From the NCBI RefSeq assembly GCF_000021725.1, contig NC_012115.1, positions 1,640,001 through 1,676,444 on the forward strand: a stretch of DNA of 36,444 nt, read 5' to 3'. The notes below the pieces were generated by a model, which worked only from the letters and a program-made list of their open reading frames with translations, made no database searches and was not told the origin of the DNA. This document shows positions 561 through 36,444 of the stretch, in pieces (position 1 is the stretch's first letter; each line of letters opens with the position of its first letter). A program made the position numbers and the translations under genes. Source of the DNA: Nautilia profundicola AmH (GTDB lineage: Bacteria > Campylobacterota > Campylobacteria > Campylobacterales > Nautiliaceae).

Positions 561-1892
561 TTACTCCCCGTAAACTCTTTTATAAATTCTGTCCACATTT
601 CTTGTATAGTAATCATAATCGAAAAGTCCTCTGATTTCTTCATCACTCAGATATTTTTTAAGATCTTCGTCTTTTAATAAGTTTTCAAGGAAAAGACTTT
701 CACCTTTTTCATTTAGAGGGGCGTGTCCTTTTTGAATCTCTTCCCATACTTTCATAGCGTTTCTTTGAACGATTTTGTATGCGTCTTCTCTGCTGACACC
801 TCTTTTAGGAAGTTCAAGCAGAACTCTTTGAGAAAACACAAGTCCACCTGTCAGGTTTAGGTTTTTCATCATGTTTTCCGGATATACGACAAGGTTTGCA
901 ATAATGTTGTTTAGTCTGTGTAGCATAAAATCAGTCGTAATAAACGCATCAGGAAGCCAGAATCTTTCGGTTGAGCTGTGGCTTATATCTCTTTCATGCC
1001 AAAGTGCCACGTTTTCCATTGCAGGAACCGTATAACTTCTGATGATTCTCGCAAGTCCTGTGATATTTTCGCTTAAAACAGGATTTCTTTTATGAGGCAT
1101 TGCGGAAGAACCTTTTTGCCCTTTTGAGAAAAATTCTTCAGCTTCATAAACTTCCGTTCTTTGGAAATGTCTGATATTTACTGCAATTTTCTCAACTGTA
1201 GAAGCGAGAAGTCCAAGAGCTGACGCAAGTCTTGCGTATCTGTCCCTTTGGATTACCTGATTTGAAATCGGTGCAGGTTTGAGACCTAAAAATTCACACG
1301 TAAGCTCTTCAAGCTCAACAGGAGCATGTGCGAAGTTACCCATAGCACCGCTGATTTTACCGACACTGATTACTTCAAGCGTTTCTTCAAGGTTTTTAAG
1401 ATGTCTTTTCATTTCATCATACCAGATTGACAAAACAAGTCCGAATGTAATCGGCTCACCGTGAATACCGTGACTTCTTCCGACCATCAAAGTATATTTA
1501 TGCTCCATGGCTCTTTTTTTGATTGATTCCATTACCATTTTTACATCATCGATAATTATTTTAAGTGAATCTCTCATCTGAAGTGCAACCGCGGTATCGA
1601 TAGTGTCACTTGAAGTCATACCGTAATGAACCCATCTGCTCTCTTCCCCGAGGCTCTCCGCCACACTTGTTAAGAATGCGATAACGTCGTGTTTTGTTTC
1701 TCTTTCGATTTCATCTATTCTTTTAATGTCAAATTTAGCGTTTTGTTCGATTTTTTTTGCGTCTTCATCAGGAATAAGCCCAAGTTTATTCCACGCTTTC
1801 ACCGCCGCTATTTCCACATCAAGCCACGCTTTATACTTTGCGTTCATATCCCAGAGTTTTTTCATTTCTTCTCTTGCGTATCTTTCAACCAT
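561..1892 (-). CDS. purB: Adenylosuccinate lyase
   Basis: A cytosolic enzyme of purine synthesis that acts twice: it splits SAICAR to AICAR plus fumarate and adenylosuccinate to AMP plus fumarate. The 443-residue length is normal. The fumarase/aspartase signature GSSAMPHKRNP is intact at about residues 262-272. The upstream catalytic region has VHYGMTSSDTIDTA (about 89-102) and the His-containing VGRSHGIHGEP (about 138-148). The ATG at 1892 is preceded by an AAAAAGG-type ribosome site. It diverges from tatB across a 71-bp gap, and a TACAAT-like -10 is visible on the minus strand at 1913-1918. The nitrilase-family gene follows closely downstream. Confidence 0.97.
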   Translation of the reverse strand: MVERYAREEMKKLWDMNAKYKAWLDVEIAAVKAWNKLGLIPDEDAKKIEQNAKFDIKRIDEIERETKHDVIAFLTSVAESLGEESRWVHYGMTSSDTIDTAVALQMRDSLKIIIDDVKMVMESIKKRAMEHKYTLMVGRSHGIHGEPITFGLVLSIWYDEMKRHLKNLEETLEVISVGKISGAMGNFAHAPVELEELTCEFLGLKPAPISNQVIQRDRYARLASALGLLASTVEKIAVNIRHFQRTEVYEAEEFFSKGQKGSSAMPHKRNPVLSENITGLARIIRSYTVPAMENVALWHERDISHSSTERFWLPDAFITTDFMLHRLNNIIANLVVYPENMMKNLNLTGGLVFSQRVLLELPKRGVSREDAYKIVQRNAMKVWEEIQKGHAPLNEKGESLFLENLLKDEDLKKYLSDEEIRGLFDYDYYTRNVDRIYKRVYGE

Positions 1893-2290: not shown

Positions 2291-3174
2291 TGGGCTTCAT
2301 TGTCAAAGAATTTGAAATAAAAGATGAAAAAGTCCTCGATTTTTTAGTCAAAAAACTGGGTTTCAACGTACGCGAAGCCAAAAGGGCGATTGACAGGGGA
2401 AGAGTAAGCGTAAACGATAAAAGAATTACGAAAAAATCTCAAAGAGCTACAGGCAGACTAAAATGTATAGTATTCGAACCTAACGGCTACGGACTAAAAC
2501 CGATATTTGAAACAACACACTTCGCCGTATTTGACAAACCAAGCGGCGTGGCGATACATCCTAAAAAACTCGCCAATACAAAGAGCCTGCTTGATGATGT
2601 TAGATCTTTATGGGGGAATGATGCGAACCTCGTACACAGACTCGATAAAGAAACAAGCGGCCTTGTAATGGCCAGCAAAAACAAATTCAGCGAATCTGTC
2701 CTAAAAAAAGCCTTTCAGGATAAAGAAATTCAAAAAAAATACCTGGCTTTGGTAAAAGGACACCTTGAAAAAGATCTGACAATCAAAAAACCTATTGCCG
2801 TTAATAAAGATGAAAACATTAAAGTAAAAGTGATGATCCATCCTGAAGGAAAAGAATCGGTTACGATAATCAAACCGATTAAAAAAATAGGTGAAAACAC
2901 ACTTGTGGAATGCATTCCGCTTACAGGCAGACAGCATCAGATAAGAGTCCATCTTTTCAGCATTGGCCATCCGATAGTAGGGGATCCGCTATACGGGGTT
3001 GATAACGAATTTGCCGACAGATACTTAAATAAACTGATTGATGAAAAAGAACGTATTGAAAAAACGGGAGCAAAAAGGCTTATGCTTCATGCTTATTATC
3101 TTGAATTTATGTTTATGAATAACAAATATGTAATTACAAGCAGATCTTTTGAGAAAGAATTAAGCGAAAATTAA
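2290..3174 (+). CDS. RluA-family 23S rRNA/tRNA pseudouridine synthase
   Basis: Isomerises specific uridines in structured RNA to pseudouridine. An N-terminal S4 RNA-binding domain (about residues 10-55, with LGFNVREAKRAIDRGRVSVN) is followed by the catalytic domain. The catalytic Asp lies in NLVHRLDKETSGLVMASK (about 116-133), the classic HRLDxxTSG motif. The C-terminal signature LTGRQHQIRVHLFSIGHPIVGD is intact. At 294 residues it has the usual RluA/RluD-type length. Whether it modifies 23S rRNA, tRNA or both cannot be told from sequence. It overlaps tatB by one base and shares its promoter. Confidence 0.93.
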   Translation: MGFIVKEFEIKDEKVLDFLVKKLGFNVREAKRAIDRGRVSVNDKRITKKSQRATGRLKCIVFEPNGYGLKPIFETTHFAVFDKPSGVAIHPKKLANTKSLLDDVRSLWGNDANLVHRLDKETSGLVMASKNKFSESVLKKAFQDKEIQKKYLALVKGHLEKDLTIKKPIAVNKDENIKVKVMIHPEGKESVTIIKPIKKIGENTLVECIPLTGRQHQIRVHLFSIGHPIVGDPLYGVDNEFADRYLNKLIDEKERIEKTGAKRLMLHAYYLEFMFMNNKYVITSRSFEKELSEN

Positions 3175-3534
3175 GATTTTTTCGTTATAATTCAAACTCA
3201 ATTTCCCCTCCTTAAAAGTTTTAAAACCTCCTCTACAAGGCCTTTTGGCCTGTTTAGGTATTCTATATAAAAAGTGTCTGGCACTATATAAGTAGTGAGG
3301 TTCATTTTTCTGTTTGATTAATTGTTACTAATTGATTTTAAGGATTGATTGGTTTATTAATAAATAATTGATAAACATTTTCTTATCTAATTTACCTATT
3401 CTCAGGTACTGCAGTGAAATACAGTTTAACATTTCTTGTTATTGTGTATTTTATACGTAATTTGAATTCATTTACACTATATGTTTATTTTATGAAACAT
3501 AACTTAACACTACTAATGATTAGAAATTTGTAAG
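3175..3534. other. 360-bp gene-poor stretch with a possible coding remnant
   Basis: There is no convincing gene between the pseudouridine synthase and the tRNAs. A 35-codon minus-strand frame at 3305-3198 has a protein-like composition at its end (EYLNRPKGLVEEVLKLLRR). It lacks a ribosome site and has a stop just upstream, so it may be the tail of a decayed gene. The stretch also holds a perfect AGGCC-TTTT-GGCCT hairpin near 3238-3251 and one of two AGTG...CACT palindromes. The remainder is very AT-rich with nothing recognisable. Confidence 0.5.
3273..3285. repeat. Imperfect palindrome AGTGTCTGGCACT, copy 1
   Basis: A 13-bp near-palindrome flanked by an AT-rich ATATAAAAA / ATATA context. A second copy at 3619-3631 matches its reverse complement at 12 of 13 positions, and the pair brackets tRNA-Thr. 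Confidence 0.6.
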
Positions 3535-3611
3535 TGGAGCCGGCGAAGGGACTCGAACCCCCGACCTGCTGATTACAAATCAGCTGCTCTAGCCAACTGA
3601 GCTACGCCGGC
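3535..3611 (-). tRNA. tRNA-Thr (anticodon TGT)
   Basis: The reverse complement folds as a complete cloverleaf. The acceptor stem is GCCGGCG/CGCCGGC, and the D arm contains GCTCAGTTGGC. The anticodon stem CTGAT/ATCAG encloses TTGTAAT (anticodon TGT), and the T arm contains GGTTCGAGTCC. The 3' CCA is encoded at 3535-3537. It follows tRNA-Asn by about 40 bp in the same direction and is probably processed from the same transcript. Confidence 0.96.
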
Positions 3612-3618
3612 ATATAAA

Positions 3619-3631
3619 AGTGACAGACACT
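3619..3631. repeat. Imperfect palindrome AGTGACAGACACT, copy 2
   Basis: It lies between the two tRNA genes and is the inverted partner of the 3273-3285 copy (12 of 13 positions). The AT-rich flanks of the two copies are also alike in direct orientation. Confidence 0.6.
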
Positions 3632-3650
3632 AAATAGTAAGATTTTTAAA

Positions 3651-3726
3651 TGGCTCCGGCGAGAGGACTCGAACCTCTGACCCAACGGTTAACAGCCGTT
3701 TGCTCTACCGACTGAGCTACGCCGGA
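3651..3726 (-). tRNA. tRNA-Asn (anticodon GTT)
   Basis: The reverse complement gives a complete cloverleaf. The acceptor stem is TCCGGCG/CGCCGGA, and the D arm contains GCTCAGTCGGTAGAGC. The anticodon stem AACGG/CCGTT encloses CTGTTAA (anticodon GTT), and the T arm contains AGGTTCGAGTCCT. CCA is encoded at 3651-3653. It is the promoter-proximal gene of the tRNA pair. Confidence 0.96.
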
Positions 3727-3738
3727 ATGTGGATTGAA

Positions 3739-3767
3739 ATTATATGCAAAAATTTAATTCATGTCAA
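3739..3767 (-). promoter_or_regulatory. Consensus sigma-70 promoter for the tRNA pair
   Basis: On the minus strand TTGACA (3767-3762) and TATAAT (3744-3739) are both perfect and separated by exactly 17 bp, about 12 bp before the mature tRNA-Asn 5' end. It overlaps the stop codon of the upstream membrane-protein gene. It is the strongest-looking promoter in the window. Confidence 0.85.
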
Positions 3768-4177
3768 GAATTTTTTGAAATTTTTTTCAAATACCAATAA
3801 ATCGCAGGCAACCCGTCTAATATTTCAATAAATATAGTCGCAATCCTGCTCCCTATACTTCCGTGATATATGTAAGCAATAAAGCCTACTGCCGGCACTA
3901 CGAAAACCAAAGCCCTCCAAAGAATGGCAAAGTAGAGCTTTAAATACCCTGTAAACCTGTTTTGAAACGTAACGATTCCGTGTTTTTCAAAAAAATAACC
4001 TATTGCAAATATGCTAAATAATATCGTTACAGTAAAAAGCCCGATAAATATTTCTTTCATATAAAAAAACAATCCCCAATAGATTAGTAAATCTTCAAAC
4101 AGCATAAAGTCCACAACAATTATAATATACATAAATATAGCAATATCAAGCCAAAGATAAAAGGCTTTTTTAAACAT
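3764..4177 (-). CDS. Small integral membrane protein of unknown function
   Basis: I do not recognise a family. The 137 residues form about four hydrophobic helices (about residues 8-28, 32-62, 83-105 and 108-125) with basic ends. There is no signal peptidase site or obvious catalytic motif. A GGAG ribosome site precedes ATG 4177. It diverges from the AraC-type regulator across a 75-bp gap, so regulation by that protein is possible but not shown. Its 3' end contains the -35 region of the tRNA promoter. Confidence 0.75.
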   Translation of the reverse strand: MFKKAFYLWLDIAIFMYIIIVVDFMLFEDLLIYWGLFFYMKEIFIGLFTVTILFSIFAIGYFFEKHGIVTFQNRFTGYLKLYFAILWRALVFVVPAVGFIAYIYHGSIGSRIATIFIEILDGLPAIYWYLKKISKNS

Positions 4178-4252
4178 ATTACACTCCGCAATTTTTTTCT
4201 ATGATTTTAATCAATTCAATGATACAATAATTATATTTCAAAAAGGTTAAAT

Positions 4253-4963
4253 ATGATTAAATTCGACAAAACTGCGGCATATATTGAGGATATTCACAAC
4301 AATACGGAATTTAAACCGCATTTTCACCAGACATACTCTTTTGCGCTTATTACAAACGGATCGTGTATTGTCGAATTTAAAAACAAAACCCTTAACTATG
4401 AAAAAAACGATTTCAGGATTATAAATCCGAATGAAATACATCTTGTTAAATCCGGTATATGGGAATATAAAAGTATTGTACTGGAAAAAGATTTCGTCAA
4501 TCAAATAACCTTTGAAATCGCTTCTGCAAAAGATCTAAACTTTCAAAACAAAATAACCTCAAACGAAATCAATACGCTTTTTTGCAAGATGTACAACAAA
4601 AACGAAGAAGCGGTATATTTCTTCTTTGAAAAGCTGATTTCCTACACCCAGGAGATTGAGCTTCCCGATATAAAATTAAAAAGATCTATTCAGCTGATTG
4701 ATGAAAACTTTACACAAAAACTCGACCTGCAAACCCTTGCAGAATCTGAAAGTTTAAGCAAATATCATTTTTTGAGGCTTTTTAAAAACCAGCTCGGACT
4801 CACCCCTCATCAATACATAATAGTTAAACGCTTAAATTACGCACTTGAACTTATGAAAAAAGAAAACAGCCTCTCAATCGTGGCGGTAAGTGCCGGATTT
4901 AGCGATCAGAGCCATTTTATAAAAGAGTTTAAAAAAGTTTTCGGATTTACTCCCAAGCATTAA
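4253..4963 (+). CDS. AraC-family transcriptional regulator
   Basis: A cytosolic DNA-binding regulator of 236 residues. The N-terminal part (about 1-120) has an AraC-type cupin with histidines in FKPHFHQTYSFAL and NPNEIHLV. The C-terminal 95 residues hold two helix-turn-helix units: DLQTLAESESLSKYHFLRLF, and later SIVAVSAGFSDQSHFIKEFK ending in KVFGFTP. An AAAAAGG ribosome site lies 6 nt before the ATG. The ligand and targets are unknown. It is divergent to the membrane-protein gene and immediately upstream of the Fur-family/zinc-uptake genes, which have their own promoter. Confidence 0.92.
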   Translation: MIKFDKTAAYIEDIHNNTEFKPHFHQTYSFALITNGSCIVEFKNKTLNYEKNDFRIINPNEIHLVKSGIWEYKSIVLEKDFVNQITFEIASAKDLNFQNKITSNEINTLFCKMYNKNEEAVYFFFEKLISYTQEIELPDIKLKRSIQLIDENFTQKLDLQTLAESESLSKYHFLRLFKNQLGLTPHQYIIVKRLNYALELMKKENSLSIVAVSAGFSDQSHFIKEFKKVFGFTPKH

Positions 4964-9609: not shown

Positions 9610-10301
9610 AACTCTATCACCCTTCCTACTCCTCCCGGGATATAATTCTCCCCGTATGCTTCTTTAAACATTTCTATCGCAATATCTCCACTGCAATGGG
9701 TAGGAGTAACGTATTCTACTCCTAAATTTTTAAGTTCGCTAATTGTTTCAATTATCGCTGCTTCGGAGCTTCTCATAAGATGAAAACCTCCCAATGCGTA
9801 TAAAACAGGTTTGCCCAGCATTTCTATTGCTCTTTTTACAATATTTACGATTCCGGGATGAGCACAGCCTGTTACAACCACACTGAATTCCCCCTCGTCA
9901 ATCACAAGACTCTGCTCTCCTATTGGCTCCATCACACCCGTAGTATAAAAACTTCCAAAAAGTTTCTTAGGACTACTGTCCACTACAATTGTTTCACGTG
10001 AAAGCGTTTTTAGATCTTTTATATAAAGTTTTGAGAGCGAATTAGGTAGTATCAGACTCATTTTTCTGTTTACATCCACAATACTGTCGATTCCGCCTAT
10101 ATGATCCCAATGAGGATGGGATATAAAAAGGTATTTAAACTCATTAATATCAAATCCCATTTTTGCTATGTTTCTTACAAGTGCACGCCCGTTGCTTCCC
10201 GTATCAAAAAGAAAATAGTCATTGATTACACACGAAAACCCCCAAAAACTCTCCAGTTTTTCATTTGCTATGTAATTGTCAAAAACTATTGAAAATTTCA
10301 T
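9606..10301 (-). CDS. MBL-fold metallohydrolase (dihydropterin phosphate synthase-like)
   Basis: Metallo-beta-lactamase fold of 231 residues. The binuclear metal motif HPHWDHIGG is at about 61-69. Further ligand candidates are in VVTGCAHPGIVNIV (about 142-155) and in the closing THCSGD (about 201-206). The TGCAHPGI and GGFHL features resemble the archaeal-type 7,8-dihydropterin-6-methyl-4-(ribofuranosyl)aminobenzene 5'-phosphate synthase-related subgroup. The true substrate is unknown. It overlaps the nuclease-helicase upstream and the CAP-domain gene downstream by 4 bp each, so it is part of the same message. A parS-like site lies within the gene. Confidence 0.85.
   Translation of the reverse strand: MKFSIVFDNYIANEKLESFWGFSCVINDYFLFDTGSNGRALVRNIAKMGFDINEFKYLFISHPHWDHIGGIDSIVDVNRKMSLILPNSLSKLYIKDLKTLSRETIVVDSSPKKLFGSFYTTGVMEPIGEQSLVIDEGEFSVVVTGCAHPGIVNIVKRAIEMLGKPVLYALGGFHLMRSSEAAIIETISELKNLGVEYVTPTHCSGDIAIEMFKEAYGENYIPGGVGRVIEF
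9990..10005. other. parS-like site (14/16), inside the MBL gene
   Basis: TGTTTCACGTGAAAGC matches the widely conserved chromosomal parS consensus TGTTTCACGTGAAACA at 14 of 16 positions; both mismatches are at one end. The central 12-bp palindrome is intact. ParB would be expected to bind here. Confidence 0.6.
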
Positions 10302-23581: not shown

Positions 23582-24013
23582 TTGAGAAGTTTTTTATTAA
23601 TATTATCTTTTATATATCTTAATGCATTTGAAGTTGAATATACTAAAGTTTATACTCAATATGTTGTTCCAAAAAATGAAGCAATAAAAATCATTACCAA
23701 AAAAGAAGGATTAACATTTCCTTTTCCTTTTATCAAAACAAAAGACGGATATATTCTTTACGGCAATATTGACCAAATAAACATGTGGCTTGATAATGAA
23801 TTTTATGCCCCGGATGATGCAAAATTTCAAACTGTTAAATATACCAAAGTAGATTTTGATAAAATCCAATATCGTATAATAAACAAAACAAAACATATTT
23901 ATAAATCATGTAAGATAAAAAAGATTATTTTTTTAACACCTGATGAGGATAAAATAATTACCAAACCTACAAACATTACTTTAAAATATAAAATAGAATT
24001 AAACTGTAAATGA
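23582..24013 (+). CDS. Conserved-looking periplasmic protein of unknown function
   Basis: I do not recognise a family. 143 residues start at TTG 23582 after AGGAG. A short signal peptide (MRSFLLILSFIYLNA) is followed by a beta-rich domain with EYTKVYTQYVVPKNEAIKI and FPFPFIKTKDGYILYGNIDQ. Two cysteines, C110 in YKSCKIKK and the penultimate residue C142, could form a disulfide. It follows hisF by 17 bp and probably shares its transcript. A parS-like site overlaps its TGA stop. Confidence 0.65.
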   Translation: MRSFLLILSFIYLNAFEVEYTKVYTQYVVPKNEAIKIITKKEGLTFPFPFIKTKDGYILYGNIDQINMWLDNEFYAPDDAKFQTVKYTKVDFDKIQYRIINKTKHIYKSCKIKKIIFLTPDEDKIITKPTNITLKYKIELNCK

Positions 24014-24026
24014 TTCACGTGAAACA
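24011..24026. other. parS-like site (15/16)
   Basis: TGATTCACGTGAAACA differs from the parS consensus TGTTTCACGTGAAACA at one position. It overlaps the stop of the preceding gene and lies 12 bp before the next ATG. Confidence 0.75.
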
Positions 24027-24038
24027 AAAAAGGTTACA

Positions 24039-24599
24039 ATGAAAAATATAAAAATAATATCTGCAGGGAAAACAGAATTATTTGATTTTGCAGAACCTAT
24101 AGGAATTGGATTAATTAATTCGGCAATAAATTTAACAAGAATATGTTTATTTGACAAACCAGATTATTTAATTTTTATTGGAACTGCAGGAAGTTATGGA
24201 AAAAAAAATATATTTGACATTGTTGAAACAACTAGTGCATCTAATATCGAACAATGCTTTGTTGAAAAAAACTGCTATACGCCATTAGATAACATCATAA
24301 GTTTTTCAAATGATGTTTCCCGTGAAACAATAGTAAATTCTTCAAACTATATTACAACAAATGCAGAAGTGGCGAAAAAATATTTAAAACTAAACATTGA
24401 TATTGAAAATATGGAGTTTTACAGTGTTATGAGCGTGGCTAAAGAATTTGAAATACCAACTCTTGGAATTTTTGTAGTTACGAATTACTGCAATAATAAC
24501 GCACATGAAGATTACATAACAAATATATCAAAAGCAAAAGATCTTTTAATACAAAGATTGATAGATAAAAGAATAATAATAAAGGAAAAAAATGGATAA
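24039..24599 (+). CDS. PNP/MTAN-family nucleoside phosphorylase-like protein
   Basis: A 186-residue protein of the PNP_UDP_1 fold, shorter than MTAN (about 230). The phosphate/ribose loop is [15 protein letters not shown] (about 42-56) and the ribose-binding Met-Glu is in [24 protein letters not shown] (about 121-144). The usual catalytic Asp (SDxA in nucleosidases) is replaced by Asn in [14 protein letters not shown], as in some phosphorylases. It may cleave a purine nucleoside; specificity is not readable from sequence. Its ribosome site is AAAGG, it overlaps rlmN by 8 bp, and a parS-like site lies within it. Confidence 0.8.
24314..24329. other. parS-like site (15/16), inside the phosphorylase-like gene
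   Basis: TGTTTCCCGTGAAACA differs from the consensus parS at one position. It is 303 bp from the 24011 site (start to start). There it encodes DVSRET in the protein. Confidence 0.75.
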
Positions 24600-34837: not shown

Positions 34838-35308
34838 TTATTTTAAAATTTCCGGCTTAAACTCGTCTATTAATTTATTTTTGTCAATTTTCAATAAATC
34901 TTTTTCCACTAATCTATAAATTTTAGAACTATTTTTTAAATAAGATAAAACATCGTTTGCTATAGGTTTAGGAAGTGATAAAAACACTTTTTTTTCACCA
35001 TACTGTTCTATTAACATATCTATATCTTCAGCTACTGCTTTTACAGCTTCTTTATATATTTCTGCTTTTAAATTATGATTTTCACCGCTGAAAGCCCTGT
35101 TTAAAAATCCTGGTTTATTAGCGCCTTCAATTCCTGTTACCAAATCCTGAACTTTTTTATGAGCCTGAACAATATCAATAGCAGTTATTAAATCAAGTTT
35201 TACCTCATTAGGTTTAAGCCCTGCTTCCGCTTCCGGAGTTCTTGGGTTAGCTTTATATGCTTTAATTTCTCCAAGAGTAGCAACAATTACTAAATCTCCT
35301 ACTTTCAT
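34838..35308 (-). CDS. Host_attach / baeRF-like domain protein
   Basis: A 156-residue soluble protein. The N-terminal VGDLVIVATLGEIKAYKAN and the C-terminal half (EIYKEAVKAVAEDIDMLIEQYG..., VFLSLPKPIANDVLSYLKN, IYRLVEKDLLKIDKNKLIDEF) resemble the family annotated as 'protein required for attachment to host cells', which is related to baeRF1-like release-factor folds. The name derives from one organism and says little about function here. AAGGAG precedes ATG 35308. It converges on the kdsA operon terminator and follows the UPF0126 gene by 35 bp. Confidence 0.6.
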   Translation of the reverse strand: MKVGDLVIVATLGEIKAYKANPRTPEAEAGLKPNEVKLDLITAIDIVQAHKKVQDLVTGIEGANKPGFLNRAFSGENHNLKAEIYKEAVKAVAEDIDMLIEQYGEKKVFLSLPKPIANDVLSYLKNSSKIYRLVEKDLLKIDKNKLIDEFKPEILK

Positions 35309-35343: not shown

Positions 35344-35928
35344 TCAAAAAGTAGGTAATTTCCAATTTTTCTTATGCGCAATTATCCTTATTATCACTCC
35401 TATAATTAAAATTAATATAATCATTTGGTCAGAAATACCAAAAACATATAAAAAAACACTTACAAATATGCTTACACTCCCATAAAAGTTTTCTTTTAAA
35501 ATAAACGGTATTTTATTTATTAAAATATCCCTTATCATACCACCGCCAACAGCGGTAATTAACGCTAAAAACACCACACCATAAATATTAAATCCTGAAT
35601 TTATAGCAACAATACTTCCTGAAATTGAAAAAGAAACCAGTCCTATTGAATCACTTATTAAAAATAGGTCTTTATTTTCAAAATCATACTCGTGTAACTT
35701 AAAATATATTCCTACTATTAAAACGCCTAAGACAATGCTTCCAGGAATAATATCGGTAAATGAATATATATGTCTATCAGCCAAAACATCTCTTATTATA
35801 CCGCCTCCAAGAGCCGTTAAAAAAGCACTGATGGTAATACCCAAAAGATCTAACCTGTTTCTTACCCCTACAATAAATCCACTTATAGCAAAAGCAATTA
35901 TTCCTATAATATCAGTAATCTCTAACAT
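35344..35928 (-). CDS. UPF0126 / TRIC-like membrane channel protein
   Basis: Inner-membrane protein of 194 residues with about seven helices arranged as two three-helix repeats. Each repeat ends in a glycine-rich hinge plus [19 protein letters not shown] (about 39-55) and [17 protein letters not shown] (about 125-141). Bacterial UPF0126 (YicG-type) proteins are homologous to TRIC cation channels; the ion carried here is not established. Its ATG lies within the last codons of ruvC (7-bp overlap), so the two are translated from one message. Confidence 0.9.
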
Positions 35929-36386
35929 TTGACCCTCTGCGAATGAGTTATTGCAACAGCAATGGCGTCTGTAATATCAAGAGGTTTTATATCTCCTTTA
36001 ATTCCCAAAATACGCTTAACCATAAAAGCCACCTGCTCTTTTTTAGCCTTTCCGTTTCCAGTAACCGCCCTTTTAACCTGAAGAGGTGTATATTCGCTGA
36101 AATTACCATGTATCTGAAGTATTCTAAGAGAAAGAGCGCCTCTAAACTGCGCAAGTTTTAATACTGTTTTGGGATTATAGGCGAAAAAAATATCCTCAAT
36201 CGCAACTTCATCTATTGAAGAATCATAAATCATATCGATACCTTCTATTAATTGTGAAAGCTGATACTGAAGCTCTTTTTCCGTAATTTTTATAAAACCA
36301 GCATCAATTAATGTAAGCTTCGGTTTTGTTTCAATTATTGCATAGCCACATTTAATTGTCCCAGGATCTATTCCGAGTATTTTCAT
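35922..36386 (-). CDS. ruvC: Holliday junction resolvase RuvC
   Basis: Endonuclease that resolves Holliday junctions together with RuvAB. 154 residues. Catalytic acidic residues are in [14 protein letters not shown] (Asp6), [13 protein letters not shown] (Glu and nearby acid, about 61-73) and [15 protein letters not shown] (Asp near 137-140). The basic DNA-binding stretch [14 protein letters not shown] is present. It is the last gene before the window edge and reads away from the DnaA-box cluster; UPF0126 follows with a 7-bp overlap. Confidence 0.95.
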
Positions 36387-36413
36387 TTATTCCTTTCACA
36401 TCTATTTCAACAG

Positions 36414-36443
36414 TTATTCACTACTTATTCACTATGTGAACGA
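36414..36443. other. DnaA-box cluster, probable edge of oriC
   Basis: Two direct copies of TTATTCACT (36414-36422, 36425-36433) are spaced 11 bp apart. TGTGAACGA (36435-36443; TCGTTCACA on the other strand) follows. They resemble Campylobacterota DnaA boxes such as the Helicobacter TCATTCACA and the E. coli TTATCCACA. The cluster lies in the non-coding region upstream of ruvC and runs off the window end. Confidence 0.6.
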
Positions 36444-36444
36444 A

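Follow-up and report, generated by a model that had tools for sequence, protein, structure and literature searches.

A probable bipartite replication origin in Nautilia profundicola, with DnaA boxes at a spacing that recurs among its relatives

The closest described chromosomal origins are those of other Campylobacterota, in which DnaA boxes flank dnaA in two clusters, oriC1 between ruvC and dnaA and oriC2 between dnaA and dnaN. A 2016 study described this layout by footprinting in three relatives of N. profundicola; for its four species it reports that no particular arrangement of boxes is shared, but notes that the DUE-proximal box keeps its direction, and it calls the interplay of oriC1 and oriC2 unexplained (PMC5043019). 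For the deep-sea vent bacterium N. profundicola Am-H itself, the genome paper reports a single circular chromosome (1,676,444 bp) whose base 1 was set upstream of dnaA, and judges the origin likely to lie upstream of dnaA from a shift in GC skew (PMC2628731). Here we examined the DNA next to ruvC at the end of this record. With a probability of about 0.95, the boxes found there form the left part of oriC1 in a bipartite origin of the Campylobacterota type, oriC1 being the half that lies upstream of dnaA.

Position of the window and gene order across the record end

The window, that is, the whole stretch of DNA analyzed, consists of the last 36,444 bases of the closed 1,676,444-bp chromosome, a single contig (positions 1,640,001–1,676,444). 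The first-pass annotation had treated its right edge as a contig end to be extended. It is the point at which a circular record was arbitrarily opened rather than the limit of an unfinished contig, and the DNA resumes at record base 1. Across the cut, the features are as follows.

Window 35922..36386, minus strand: ruvC, divergent from dnaA and the left border of oriC1 (Pfam RuvC, E 1e-52)
Window 36387..36444: left part of the ruvC–dnaA intergenic region (oriC1), 58 bp of 158 bp, the remaining 100 bp being record bases 1–100
Record bases 101–1411: dnaA, with a TTG start
Record bases 1534–2586: dnaN
Record bases 2620–4896: gyrB

The gene order ruvC–dnaA–dnaN–gyrB is therefore present when the record is read across its joined end and start; dnaN and gyrB were identified by translation and position rather than by family search. 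Among 21 Nautiliaceae genomes, 20 contained dnaA, of which oriC1 was measured in 19 and oriC2 in 20. In 19 of the 20 dnaA loci, ruvC lies divergent beside dnaA, and the twentieth locus ends at a contig end. We considered whether joining the record end to its start had produced an artificial junction and rejected this, because the unjoined contigs of relatives match the gap size (149–192 bp, and 226 bp in the genome G062, compared with 158 bp here) and carry the box lattice described below without a break. Near ruvC, window positions 34838–35308 (minus strand) encode a 156-aa ORF with no Pfam match.

The earlier proposal of a probable oriC next to ruvC is thus supported by dnaA, dnaN and gyrB beyond the edge and by the box clusters, and also by GC skew. 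In sampled stretches, which cover about 256 kb of the 1.68 Mb, the skew was positive in all ten 10-kb stretches between 60 and 790 kb and negative in nine of the ten between 860 and 1590 kb. In the 56 kb of contiguous sequence spanning the junction, the cumulative skew reaches its minimum at record base 826, the skew being weak near the origin. An origin elsewhere was rejected: besides the switch at this locus, which the first-pass annotation had named as a check, the sole other lasting switch among the samples falls between 780 and 860 kb, about opposite, where the second one is expected. The stretch at 1,420,001–1,430,000 (L080) has a skew of +0.098, the wrong sign for the left arm, and may represent an inversion or an island.

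The parS sites cited earlier as a sign of origin proximity are also real. The genome contains three parS-like sites (at most two mismatches), all on the origin side within 26.5 kb of the record end, and a control pattern gave 0 matches.

Window 9990..10005: parS-like site, two mismatches to TGTTTCACGTGAAACA, 26.4 kb from the record end
Window 24011..24026: parS-like site, one mismatch to TGTTTCACGTGAAACA, 12.4 kb from the record end
Window 24314..24329: parS-like site, one mismatch to TGTTTCACGTGAAACA, 12.1 kb from the record end

Two of them (24011–24329) lie in or beside a phosphorylase-superfamily gene. The sole ParB_N match is at 274 kb (274436), which puts parB far from parS in N. profundicola. 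HobA, which partners DnaA in H. pylori, is encoded at 1,116,673. Downstream of the origin, a block of about 21% GC (locus L004, 7556–11556) carries ORFs that, by eye, resemble a type II secretion or pilus set.

DnaA boxes on either side of dnaA

The part of the ruvC–dnaA gap inside the window contains four boxes with a TTCAC core.

Window 36392..36400, plus strand: TTCAC-core box CCTTTCACA, outside the eight-site lattice
Window 36414..36422, plus strand: DnaA box TTATTCACT, lattice site 1, TTCAC core in 19/19 Nautiliaceae
Window 36425..36433, plus strand: DnaA box TTATTCACT, lattice site 2, TTCAC core in 18/19 Nautiliaceae
Window 36435..36443, minus strand: DnaA box TCGTTCACA, lattice site 3, head-to-head with site 2, core in 17/19 Nautiliaceae

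The two TTATTCACT boxes are 11 bp apart, start to start, and together with the inverted TCGTTCACA they take up 30 bp of non-coding DNA, as the first-pass annotation had noted; the fourth core, CCTTTCACA, had been overlooked. Extending the sequence rightward, as had been suggested, yields dnaA and five further TTCAC-core boxes at record bases 36–90. The 158-bp gap thereby holds nine cores, four of them inside the window, while 0.31 would be expected from the genome rate, as determined from 250,900 bases of other sequence of the same genome. In this background, the densest 158-bp stretch has four cores, and just 2 of 486 core-anchored 31-bp stretches contain at least three. The motif TTATTCAC[AT] occurs three times in the gap (0.002 expected) and three times in all 250,900 background bases. 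Exact TTATTCACT was found at no other place on either strand of the window, and with one mismatch allowed the same motif is no commoner there than expected (14 matches for 20.6 expected). The signal thus lies in the exact core and its clustering. Column conservation in Nautiliaceae oriC1 (18 rows, G062 left out) was 0.977 for the cores, 0.795 for the rest of the boxes and 0.775 for the DNA outside them.

Counted from the first TTATTCACT, the oriC1 boxes start at 0 (forward), 11 (forward), 21 (reverse), 66 (forward), 78 (forward), 89 (forward), 99 (reverse) and 112 (forward). The three boxes at the window edge form a triplet, two forward boxes 11 bp apart and a reverse box 10 bp on, which is repeated exactly 78 bp further. 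In 14 of the 19 Nautiliaceae, a TTCAC core stands at every one of the eight lattice sites, give or take 1 bp; the other five genomes have 7, 7, 6, 6 and 4, the last being G062. When the same boxes are placed at random, 2.2–3.1 sites are filled on average. The ruvC–dnaA gap of G062 (L050) contains eleven boxes, all in one direction, a different oriC1 design, and its DnaA is only 61% identical, as against 80–97% for the rest of the family.

On the other side of dnaA, the 122-bp dnaA–dnaN gap holds three TTCAC cores (0.24 expected), with one more at the extreme end of dnaA.

Record 1403–1411, minus strand: oriC2 box
Record 1426–1434, plus strand: oriC2 box
Record 1432–1440, plus strand: oriC2 box
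Record 1474–1482, plus strand: oriC2 box

The last of these boxes points at the predicted unwinding element and the distal one points away. Five consecutive 5′-YTA-3′ triplets, the complement of DnaA-trios, start 12 bp past the last forward box. The stringent trio, 3′-GAT-5′, which reads 5′-CTA-3′ on the top strand, has a described role in opening (PMC8235120, PMC8287927). At least three consecutive YTA triplets follow the last oriC2 forward box in 20/20 Nautiliaceae. Across 66 loci (a 67th, which had no forward box, was dropped), 45 have at least three in a row no more than 35 bp past that box, compared with 0.86 expected from shuffles and one on the reverse strand. From its sequence, the five-fold DnaA-trio between dnaA and dnaN is probably the unwinding element, about 1.5 kb past the window edge. 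Of the features that had been placed just beyond position 36444, dnaA is there, whereas this predicted element is not.

Box spacing across the Campylobacterota

Two spacing rules were set down after 26 loci of other families had been inspected and before 26 held-out loci were fetched. The oriC1 rule specifies a forward box, a second forward box 11 or 12 bp on and a reverse box 10 or 11 bp after that. The oriC2 rule specifies two reverse boxes 9 or 10 bp apart, followed after 61–63 bp by a forward box, or by a tandem box 8 bp further (69–71). Within the Nautiliaceae, the oriC1 spacing occurs in 17 of 19 genomes, N. profundicola included, and the oriC2 spacing in 18 of 20. The oriC2 of N. profundicola departs from it, since its second reverse box has no TTCAC core.

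The training loci, in which oriC1 was measurable in 20 and oriC2 in 26, showed the respective spacings 8 and 18 times. The held-out loci were measurable for oriC1 in 19 cases and for oriC2 in 21, the remainder having been lost to contig ends, to dnaA at the record start or to ruvC or dnaN not being found; two of the held-out contigs, neither of them measurable, belong to a single genome (G021) that has 8% contamination. In this set, we found the oriC1 spacing in 10/19 loci and the oriC2 spacing in 12/21, where random placement gives 0.02 in each case; these counts cover related genomes and are not independent events. Controls with mirrored rules and wrong-gap rules gave 0/39 and 0/47. Previously unseen families account for 13 of the 19 oriC1 loci in this held-out set, and six of the 13 have the spacing (families f2, f10 and f15). 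It was absent from f9 (4/4 loci), f14 (3/3) and f13, f16 and f8 (1/1 each). Overall, at least one genome with the oriC1 spacing was found in 10 of 15 other families.

From a set of 80 named loci, 14 were analyzed, comprising 12 Campylobacterota plus Hippea and Desulfurellaceae. Among the 12, the strict oriC1 spacing is present in 2 of the 10 measurable loci, and the inward pair alone, a forward box with a reverse box 10 bp on, in 8 of the 10, as read by eye. The oriC2 spacing is present in 6 of 12, and in two others the distance is 60 bp instead of 61–63. Hippea and Desulfurellaceae represent the sister class. Their loci, one each, contain no TTCAC core in the dnaA–dnaN gap, and no ruvC was found upstream, so the geometry is traced within the class only. 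A draw of 121 genomes from the phylum gave only genomes of the same order. One locus, from a Sulfurovum MAG (L120), has a 569-bp dnaA–dnaN gap with 16 TTCAC cores in an apparent repeated array, unlike other loci. In two genomes (G020 and G105), many near-identical weak Bac_DnaA matches are scattered genome-wide, possibly transposon ATPases.

On these grounds, we consider it fairly probable that the DnaA boxes of Campylobacterota origins follow a common ancestral geometry, in which spacing and direction, not letters, are fixed.

Possible working of the origin and comparison with known systems

Beyond the observed sequence, synteny, skew, conservation and spacing, we infer DnaA binding, looping, unwinding and dnaA autoregulation as follows. 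DnaA would bind the box arrays on either side of dnaA, in oriC1 and in oriC2, and the two complexes would join with dnaA looped out. A DnaA filament would then start at the DUE-proximal oriC2 box and extend along the strand that carries the DnaA-trios (record ~1495–1509). The duplex would open at the trio end of oriC2, where the helicase would load and two forks depart. This model of filling both clusters, looping and opening at oriC2 is drawn by analogy with the footprinted relatives (PMC5043019).

A predicted dnaA promoter, TTTACA-17-TAAAAT with TG, occupies record 6–34, between the two oriC1 triplets. The promoter scan itself gave 4 sites and shuffles gave 2.7, about equal, so the case for this promoter rests better on conservation: its −10 part, TATGnTAAAAT, is nearly invariant in the Nautiliaceae. 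Given that the triplets bracket it, one just upstream and the other just downstream, DnaA there should also control dnaA, and bound DnaA would repress or tune the gene. The same bracketing would suit boxes that serve mainly as an operator, through which DnaA controls dnaA and ruvC, with oriC2 as the sole site of replication start, as at the monopartite C. jejuni origin. Published accounts lend this some substance, in that the C. jejuni dnaA–dnaN region with two dnaA-end boxes is reported to have sufficed for a minichromosome (PMC6052347) and oriC2 alone is described as unwinding in vitro in relatives (PMC5043019). However, eight boxes on a fixed lattice exceed, in our judgement, the needs of a simple operator, and oriC1 deletion is described as lethal in H. 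pylori and B. subtilis (PMC5043019). We therefore regard a mainly regulatory function as unlikely.

It is also doubtful that some of the boxes are sites of an orphan response regulator of the HP1021/Cj1509 type competing with DnaA. HP1021 is reported to preclude DnaA binding at the H. pylori origin, and Cj1509 box 1 in C. jejuni is given as TTTCACA (PMC6052347), a sequence found inside three of the nine oriC1 boxes but missing from the other six. Such sites would in any case overlay the origin rather than replace it. Finally, that AT-rich 9-mers have clustered by chance in a divergent promoter region, which would agree with the one-mismatch motif not being enriched in the window, is exceedingly improbable and was rejected, given the excess of exact cores, the recurrence of the lattice in the Nautiliaceae and the spacings found in the held-out loci.

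For the bipartite origin preferred here, the position is already in print, and the overall layout is the class layout described in 2016. The fixed box spacing across relatives goes beyond the 2016 account and appears to be new: a search of the open literature found no description of class-wide spacing or of the N. profundicola boxes, while DoriC and supplementary tables, outside that search, may hold a predicted entry for this genome. If the geometry is indeed ancestral, oriC1 would be built from a triplet of two forward boxes 11–12 bp apart and a reverse box 10–11 bp on, duplicated at 78 bp in the Nautiliaceae, and oriC2 from two reverse boxes 9–10 bp apart and, at 61–63 bp, the forward box from which unwinding starts. 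The published finding of no conserved pattern would then reflect the choice of lineages, the pattern having eroded in those sampled. On this view, the rigid inward-facing pair would be a unit dedicated to DnaA assembly, either a loop bridge or a dnaA operator, testable through changes in spacing alone. That the spacing and direction of DnaA boxes, beyond their sequence, are held across families of the phylum could matter in two ways: the geometry would give oriC1 a defined, testable unit, and it would supply a sequence rule for locating origins in unassembled vent genomes.

The B. subtilis origin differs from that of N. profundicola in gene neighbours and box geometry. As described, the two are alike in being bipartite around dnaA and in the tandem boxes followed by DnaA-trios of the basal unwinding system, but the box sequences are unlike (PMC8287927). 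C. jejuni has an oriC2-type cluster between dnaA and dnaN with TTCAC boxes, but its origin is described as probably monopartite (PMC6052347), whereas the oriC1 array of N. profundicola is dense. In H. pylori, two box clusters lie around dnaA and DnaA-trios directly follow the DUE-proximal oriC2 box (PMC8235120); there, however, dnaA is reported not to adjoin ruvC (PMC6052347), and the box pattern differs. The closest likeness is to the bipartite origins of Arcobacter butzleri, Sulfurimonas denitrificans and Wolinella succinogenes, which are described with the same ruvC–oriC1–dnaA–oriC2–dnaN layout, the same TTCAC-core boxes, a DUE-pointing box and an oriC2 DnaA-trio (PMC5043019). That study reports no box arrangement as conserved among its species, whereas the oriC1 boxes of N. 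profundicola form a repeated triplet on a fixed lattice.
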